This document shows positions 36,861 through 38,670 of a DNA stretch of 38,670 bases, in pieces. Origin of the DNA: an uncultured Porphyromonadaceae bacterium (GTDB taxonomy: Bacteria; Bacteroidota; Bacteroidia; Bacteroidales; Muribaculaceae); assembly GCA_947177145.1 (NCBI GenBank), contig CAMWTL010000004.1, positions 1 to 38,670 on the forward strand. The letters run 5' to 3'. A model generated the notes under the pieces. The model did not search any database, was not told the DNA's origin, and was given only the letters and a program-made list of their open reading frames with translations. The position numbers and the translations under genes were made by a program. Within the stretch, counting starts at the first letter, position 1. The number at the start of each line of letters is the position of its first letter.

Positions 36861-37078
36861 TACAATTAGCCATCACCATAGCTTATCAAATGATCATGTG
36901 AACAGATTTATCGTTACCCATTCTTTTTAAAGAGACTTAATTCACGAAGAGCTTGAATTTATCTTTTAGCCCTTTTTTCATACACTTAATACTTATAATC
37001 TACTATAATTGGACTCAACAACCCTTAAACACTTTTAATATATCAAATAAAAGATTTACAACAATATAGATTTAATTT

Positions 37079-37115
37079 TATCGCAAAATGAGACAAATTG
37101 CGATAAATTGCGATA
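37079..37115 (+). repeat. 37-bp three-half-site repeat, fic downstream copy
   Basis: tatcgcaaaa-tgagaca-aattgcgata-aattgcgata; inverted relative to the copy at 38467..38503 (about 31/37 identical). Confidence 0.8.
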
Positions 37116-37125
37116 ACATAGATTA

Positions 37126-38439
37126 CTACCTATGAATCATATTTTGAAAGTTATCACTTTTTACATATCCCTTTGTTCTACCGTTAAGGGAAATTTCTGA
37201 TAGATAGCCCTTCTTTGCTAAATCCCTTAAATCGGATTTAGCAGTACCGGGACTAACTCCAAACCTATTTATTACGTCTACAGAAGTTAGAATCTCATCT
37301 GGATTGTCAATGTACCTACGTATAATCTCTGCTTGTCGTCTTGTGATGTTTCCTAAATGAAGCAATCGCTCTGATTTTTTCTTTTCCTGATGTTTTCTTA
37401 ATAAATATTTTCTCAATTCTTCAAATGATTTACCTAAAACTTCCAAATTATACTGGATAAAGTAGCCGATGTCATTTGAATCATGTTCAGCATAGAGATA
37501 AGATTTCTCGTAGGCTTTCTTAGAACCTCTAATAATACGAGAAATAGACAGATACTGGACAAGCCAATAATCATTTCTCATCATATACCAATAAAACAAT
37601 GCTCTTGCAGTACGTCCATTTCCATCTGCAAAAGGATGGTAATATCCGATTAGAAAATGTATAATTATTCCACGGATAATAGGATGAATAAATATCGCAG
37701 GAGTCTTGTCATTAAAAAATCTACAAAGTAGTTCAATAAAATTTGGTAAGCATGCCGCAGATGGAGGCATATGAACGGTTTCTCCGGTTATCCCATTTCC
37801 TACAACAATGTTTTCCTCGCTCCTTCTAAACCTTCCAGCCGCATCTTCTATATCAAGAGCACCCTCAGTCATCATACCATGTATTTGCATTATCAATTCT
37901 GGTGTCAAATCCTTTTTTGCATTGTCCCGAATAAAGTTTATTGTTGTATAATTATTAAGAATCATCCGTTGGCTTTTATCTCGCGGGTTCATCTTTTTTC
38001 TCAACATTTCTTTAGCCACCTCTCTGGTTGTGGCTGCTCCTTCCATTTGACTTGATGCAATTGCCTCTTCCATAATAGAGCTAATAAGATATAACTCCTG
38101 CGTAGTCTTGTCATCTGGAAAAATCTTGGATGCACCCCACGACCCACCGAAGTTCATATCAAACTCATGACAACGCTTTTGCATATAGTTAGACAATGAA
38201 AAATGTATATTTTCAAATCCTACAATCTTAACATCTGTACGACTTCGTAAAAATTTTACCAACCGCCACAAATCATCTTTTTCAAAACCTAAAGCATTTG
38301 CTCTGTATTTGACATCTGTCCAATACAAATAATTATCATTGATTTTATTAATACTGGCGAGTGTCTCTTCATTCTGGAGTTTGTCCAAAATTTCTTCAGT
38401 AAATAAAATCATATCAACCAATGGAGGATTTTCTATCAT
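37126..38439 (-). CDS. Fic/DOC family protein with C-terminal winged-helix domain
   Basis: Fic motif HPFADGNGRTAR; N-terminal inhibitory motif SSQMEG (S/TxxxEG/N); C-term ITRRQAEIIRRYIDNPDEILTSVDVINRFGVSPGTAKSDLRDLAKKGYL. Confidence 0.93.
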   Translation of the reverse strand: MIENPPLVDMILFTEEILDKLQNEETLASINKINDNYLYWTDVKYRANALGFEKDDLWRLVKFLRSRTDVKIVGFENIHFSLSNYMQKRCHEFDMNFGGSWGASKIFPDDKTTQELYLISSIMEEAIASSQMEGAATTREVAKEMLRKKMNPRDKSQRMILNNYTTINFIRDNAKKDLTPELIMQIHGMMTEGALDIEDAAGRFRRSEENIVVGNGITGETVHMPPSAACLPNFIELLCRFFNDKTPAIFIHPIIRGIIIHFLIGYYHPFADGNGRTARALFYWYMMRNDYWLVQYLSISRIIRGSKKAYEKSYLYAEHDSNDIGYFIQYNLEVLGKSFEELRKYLLRKHQEKKKSERLLHLGNITRRQAEIIRRYIDNPDEILTSVDVINRFGVSPGTAKSDLRDLAKKGYLSEISLNGRTKGYVKSDNFQNMIHR

Positions 38440-38462
38440 ATCAGATTATTTATTTTAAAAGG

Positions 38463-38493
38463 CAAATATCGCAATTTTTCGCAATTATTCAAA
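38463..38493 (-). promoter_or_regulatory. Probable fic promoter overlapping half-site operators
   Basis: Minus strand TTTG (38493..38490), 19-nt spacer, GATATTTG (38470..38463; TAnnTTTG with one mismatch). Confidence 0.5.
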
Positions 38494-38503
38494 ATTTGCG
38501 ATA
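38467..38503 (-). repeat. 37-bp three-half-site repeat, fic upstream copy (putative operator)
   Basis: Minus strand: tatcgcaaat-tttgaat-aattgcgaaa-aattgcgata, same spacing as the downstream copy. Confidence 0.8.
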
Positions 38504-38545
38504 AACAAAGTGTTATTTATGTGATAATCACGGCTCTGACGCATC

Positions 38546-38668
38546 TTAATTTTTAATAACGTCAAAACTTTTTAAGGCGTAAAAGTCGTTGTCCCATCCA
38601 GCCTTCTTACGATGCCCTTTGACTCCCATTGAGGATACTTTAGCGTTCTTGATTATATTCAGGCCGAT
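38546..38668 (-). mobile_element. 3' end of a probable ISAs1-family transposase gene (truncated by window edge)
   Basis: Minus-strand open frame IGLNIIKNAKVSSMGVKGHRKKAGWDNDFYALKSFDVIKN*, resembling ISAs1 transposase C-termini (hydrophobic LN helix, KR-rich, AGWDxDF). Confidence 0.55.
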
Positions 38669-38670
38669 AC

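Follow-up and report, generated by a model that had tools for sequence, protein, structure and literature searches.

A SoFic-like fic gene lies between two copies of a 37-bp site

Close to one end of the window, as we call the whole 38,670-nucleotide stretch analysed, an open reading frame on the minus strand (positions 37126–38439) encodes a SoFic-like Fic protein of 437 amino acids. It matches the Pfam Fic family (2.7e-15) and is recognized by the PADLOC SoFic model (1.4e-43). Its score against the NCBIfam SoFic equivalog, 46.5 bits, falls far short of the cut-off of 550, so the product belongs to a related family and is not itself a SoFic equivalog. The catalytic motif HPFADGNGRTAR (residues 268–279) fits HxFx(D/E)GNGRxxR, with H268, D272-G273-N274-G275-R276 and R279 invariant among 44 sequences. 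N-terminal to the Fic core lies the inhibitory motif SSQMEG (S129-SQM-E133-G134), which fits (S/T)xxxE(G/N) and whose S129 and E133 are likewise invariant (44 sequences). Together, these motifs identify the protein as a class II Fic.

An AlphaFold model, built with 44 sequences (pLDDT 88.8), predicts a C-terminal winged helix at residues 367–427, consisting of three helices (367–378, 386–393 and 397–409) and two strands (413–417 and 423–427). From this predicted secondary structure and from the half-site co-variation described below, we propose that the C-terminal winged helix-turn-helix (wHTH; residues 364–437, positions 37129–37350, minus strand) is a DNA-binding domain. The best fold matches of the model in the PDB are full-length Fic-wHTH proteins, led by SoFic (3zcn) and including a Desulfovibrio Fic, 7xux and CbFic2 (8cil). 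By sequence, the top PDB match is 7xux, which we presume to be CccR, judging by its date and description.

The earlier note on this DNA, made from its letters alone, had placed a 37-bp copy of a three-half-site unit on either side of fic, and both positions held. Site B (37079–37115, plus strand), which is operator-like and ends 10 bp past the fic stop codon, reads TATCGCAAAA-TGAGACA-AATTGCGATA-AATTGCGATA, that is, 10-bp half-sites with an N7 spacer. Site A (38467–38503, minus strand), a putative promoter operator, reads TATCGCAAAT-TTTGAAT-AATTGCGAAA-AATTGCGATA; it has the same order of half-site, N7, inverted half-site and direct half-site, and B is inverted relative to it. The two belong to a slightly wider inverted repeat (37077–37115 and 38467–38505) of 39 nt, 33 of which (85%) are complementary. 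With up to 3 mismatches allowed, the 37-bp pattern matches the window at exactly two places, and 100 dinucleotide shuffles gave no match. In the 2.9-Mb draft genome, the core palindrome occurs once, at 37079–37105, and the two-half-site core TATCGCAATTTATCGCAA, with one mismatch allowed, is found at sites A and B only; a reversed-pattern control gave no match across 198 genomes. A role for the sites in regulating other genes was rejected, as the genome has no further locus.

Counting open reading frames of at least 50 amino acids, fic is the sole gene between the sites; no linked small antitoxin gene of the Fic/FicA or Doc/Phd type was found, and neighbouring genes vary among relatives. The AsmA-like gene adjoining fic in the window has no conserved region after it in the relatives compared, and the window's own locus is not syntenic in them. 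Beyond site A, 167 bp of the contig remain, and a minus-strand reading frame at its very end (38570–38670) resembles, by eye, the C terminus of an ISAs1-type transposase.

The site architecture recurs at the promoters of fic relatives

We scanned genome contigs and collected 78 relatives at 45–79% identity, most of them metagenome-assembled and almost all with a Bacteroidales annotation. In the 110 bp upstream of each start codon, we scored a 10-bp half-site, an N7 spacer, an inverted half-site and a direct half-site at +10, and shuffled each sequence by a first-order Markov model to set the significance threshold at the 99th percentile. The architecture exceeded this threshold in 62 of 76 promoters, which supports the earlier proposal of selected protein-binding sites. 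The unit can exceed three half-sites, as relatives often add a fourth, degenerate one.

What is kept beside the fic relatives is the arrangement of the half-sites; their sequence varies by clade. The main types are AATTGCGATA, AATTGGAAAG, AATTTGCAAG and AATTATCAAG; the AATTGCGATA type is that of Muribaculaceae and similar bacteria, the window among them, and the AATTGGAAAG type is that of most other relatives. Within the half-site, the inner AATT is constant and the outer six bases vary. A search of 295 genomes of the order with the AATTGGAAAG-type pattern returned five matches, four of which lie at fic relatives.

Site A overlaps the candidate core promoter

Bacteroides promoters carry TTTG near −33 and TAnnTTTG at −7 (PMC7366714). 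In the window, a candidate −33 box, TTTG (38490–38493, minus strand), falls within the N7 spacer of site A. A candidate −7 box, GATATTTG (38463–38470, minus strand), overlaps the third half-site and is imperfect, agreeing with TAnnTTTG at 5 of 6 specified positions. An interval of 19 bp separates the two boxes and contains the second half-site. Among 53 loci in register, TTG occurs in or at the N7 spacer in 44, and a −7 box begins 6–8 bp into the third half-site in 34. This recurrence and the narrow −7 offset indicate that A spans the core promoter, which a protein bound at A would cover.

Half-site sequence co-varies with the winged helix

The distance between half-sites tracked that between winged helices when the rest of the protein was controlled for (partial Mantel r = 0.54, 0 of 2,000 permutations, N = 58), and the reverse partial, for the rest of the protein with the winged helix controlled, was −0.05. 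In a sliding-window control, the winged helix ranked first among the segments, with a partial r of 0.57. Two segments outside it, 130–197 and 160–227, were also raised (0.46 and 0.38, respectively), and partial Mantel tests are anticonservative on phylogenetic data. Given the raised values in these two segments, the co-variation supports recognition by the winged helix and is not decisive proof of it.

A second site often follows the stop codon

Of 73 loci, 37 have a significant B-type site of the same architecture 3′ of the fic stop. Relative to A, it is inverted in 13 of these and direct in 24, being mostly inverted in Muribaculaceae and mostly direct in other clades. B also matches the half-site of its own locus's promoter: at least 2 matching half-sites occur within 110 bp of the stop in 59% of loci, compared with 3% in cross-class comparisons and 0.6% for segments inside fic. 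Because roughly half of the relatives lack B, and those that have it differ in its orientation from clade to clade, B is, on this comparison, non-essential. Its presence is independent of the orientation of the neighbouring gene (Fisher p = 1), and a function as a road-block or promoter for that gene was rejected on these grounds.

At five loci of Muribaculaceae type (L002–L005 and L013), a third site, again of B type, lies upstream of fic at a distance of about 235 bp, so that direct repeats bound a 1.56-kb unit containing the gene. This arrangement may be a scar left by a former tandem copy.

Genomic context and sites without fic

In at least 12 loci, fic is embedded in a type I restriction system, with hsdM on one side and hsdS on the other (L044, L045, L048, L057, L059–L061, L063, L078 and others). 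The embedded gene starts about 80 bp after hsdM, and the gap holds its own operator and promoter. Our search of the open-licence literature returned nothing relevant on Fic within type I restriction loci of Bacteroides. Elsewhere, fic occupies many varied and unrelated contexts. The gene thus moves on evolutionary time, though not visibly by way of the A and B repeats.

Operator pairs lacking a fic gene were found among 198 genomes of the same family, in genomes without a close fic, and often stand between convergent genes. In genus g3, a gene for a DUF2795 protein is followed by B and fic in one genome (G031) and by B alone in another (G127). Beside the latter B lies GGTAAAATCAGATAAT, identical to the fic 3′ end of a relative; this alignment scores 32, and 300 shuffles reached at most 25. 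Because of this match, we read the G127 orphan as a remnant left after fic deletion and not as a clean excision.

In G145, a block of about 55 nt that includes the operator is present in two identical copies, one at the fic promoter and the other at an unrelated locus close to where a different contig ends (L161:5248–5305 and L157:120–175), with a flanking stretch in opposite relative orientation. The duplication could be an assembly effect.

Several viral contigs (L211, L212, L221, L223 and L225–L227) bear Fic-type operator sequences. A phage-borne fic was considered and dismissed, as no fic relative is encoded in the sequence retrieved for any of the 23 viral loci that have operator-like sites. 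Operator-like pairs were also noted at L154:7840–9450 and L156:8519–8547, some of them within phage- or ICE-like coding sequences, where they are translated as NLSQ..NCDN; such matches may be due to chance or to something else.

Probable Fic autorepression and alternative explanations

Taken together, the architecture, its overlap with the promoter, the co-variation, the match of B to A, the independence of B from the orientation of the neighbouring gene, the concentration of sites at fic and the precedent of CccR suggest, with a probability of about 0.75, that A and B are operators for Fic itself, bound via its C-terminal winged helix, and that fic is autorepressed. Binding by the Fic winged helix and autoregulation had both been raised in the earlier note, and the comparative data support them well: half-site sequence follows the winged helix more closely than it follows other parts of Fic, and the architecture overlies the fic promoter in most relatives. 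Weighing against this reading are the raised values of two segments outside the winged helix, the missing or differently oriented B of many relatives, the orphan sites in genomes that lack a close fic and the imperfect −7 box of the window. A Fic dimer would bind the inverted half-sites of A through its C-terminal winged helices and, lying across the −33 box, spacer and −7 box, would block RNA polymerase. Fic enzymes tag other proteins, and such repression would keep this potentially toxic AMP-transferase at a low level. Further half-sites 10 bp (one helical turn) apart may let extra protomers bind cooperatively. B would be a second operator of the same specificity without an obvious promoter, and would most likely reinforce repression, either by looping over the gene, which is possible between A and B, or as a local reservoir of Fic.

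The earlier note also raised a mobile fic cassette marked by the pair. In the form considered here, A and B would be its terminal repeats, with a recombinase acting in trans. The many unrelated contexts of fic, the direct repeats around the 1.56-kb unit in five Muribaculaceae loci, the solo sites without fic and the block shared by two places in G145 are all consistent with such a cassette. However, the orientation of B is not conserved, which argues against A and B being transposon ends, and no recombinase is linked to them. Moreover, the sequence of the sites changes together with that of the Fic winged helix, A is bound up with promoter boxes, and the one comparable orphan, in G127, appears to be a deletion scar with fic remnants. 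We consider mobility through these repeats unlikely.

An RNA hairpin at B, serving as terminator or 3′-end stabilizer of the fic mRNA with A as a related copy, seems similarly doubtful. As RNA, B folds better than shuffles (z −3.2 to −4.2), it lies 3′ of the stop codon, and the L002 flank has a short U run; yet the stem is AT-rich, the window copy lacks a U run, and the same sequence type stands at A, in the promoter of the same locus. In addition, the third half-site, a direct repeat that would be unpaired in the hairpin, changes along with the others. That A and B are bound by another defence-gene regulator would fit the solo sites in genomes without a close fic and on phage contigs, but we hold this to be very unlikely, since half-site change follows the Fic winged helix better than the rest of Fic, the only sites of the window's own genome flank fic, and CccR provides a precedent for Fic itself.

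Relation to known systems and significance

Autorepression by a Fic-HTH protein is known from CccR of Yersinia pseudotuberculosis (YPK_0951), which acts on an inverted repeat near the promoter boxes to repress its own gene, as shown by EMSA, footprint and reporter assays (PMC9755527). The window Fic resembles it in combining a Fic domain with a C-terminal HTH and in having an inverted-repeat operator on its own promoter, the latter being predicted here from sequence. In CccR, half-sites AGATAATCAT stand 26 bp apart in one operator, whereas here the spacer is N7, extra half-sites follow at 10-bp steps and a second operator is often present. CccR is also a secreted T6SS effector, whereas the window Fic shows no sign of secretion.

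SoFic of Shewanella oneidensis (3eqx/3zcn) and the anti-phage Sofic of E. coli (PMC12249575) have in common with the window Fic a class II architecture with a winged helix. SoFic shares about 18% identity with it in the structure alignment, and the window protein falls far below the equivalog cut-off; DNA binding by SoFic has been termed undemonstrated (PMC10628234). CbFic2 of Coxiella burnetii (8cil) is likewise a class II Fic with a winged HTH, which binds DNA, and DNA binding induces (de)AMPylation (PMC10628234). That study used random DNA, did not identify a specific operator and proposed a role involving host histone H3. By analogy with DNA-induced AMPylation in CbFic2, operator binding may also control the activity of the window Fic. 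Because DNA binding induces activity in this related protein, a bolder version can be formulated, in which the two operators would keep Fic looped and DNA-bound, a state controlling enzyme activity as well as synthesis. If so, invading DNA bearing the same operator, like that of some phage contigs, would titrate or retarget Fic, making the operator pair a defence sensor; we regard this as highly improbable. In having repeated half-sites over the gene's own promoter, site A resembles the cooperative operators of the AbiEi antitoxin and other multi-inverted-repeat autoregulators (PMC7319586). Unlike AbiEi, there is no antitoxin gene here, and enzyme and proposed repressor are one protein.

Within the open-licence literature, Fic-HTH autorepression is already known from CccR; what would be new is how widely it occurs, a specificity that co-varies with the protein and an additional operator behind the gene. 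Self-repression by Fic rests in that literature on one well-studied case, and the operators proposed here would extend it order-wide, mostly in gut bacteria. The half-sites come in at least four specificities, which change with the protein and form a natural series from which the recognition code of the Fic winged helix could be read. Under the autorepression model, operators are also to be expected for other Fic proteins in which no role is known for the DNA-binding tail. Finally, both the second operator and the location of fic within type I restriction operons suggest that this defence-like and potentially toxic enzyme is tightly controlled.
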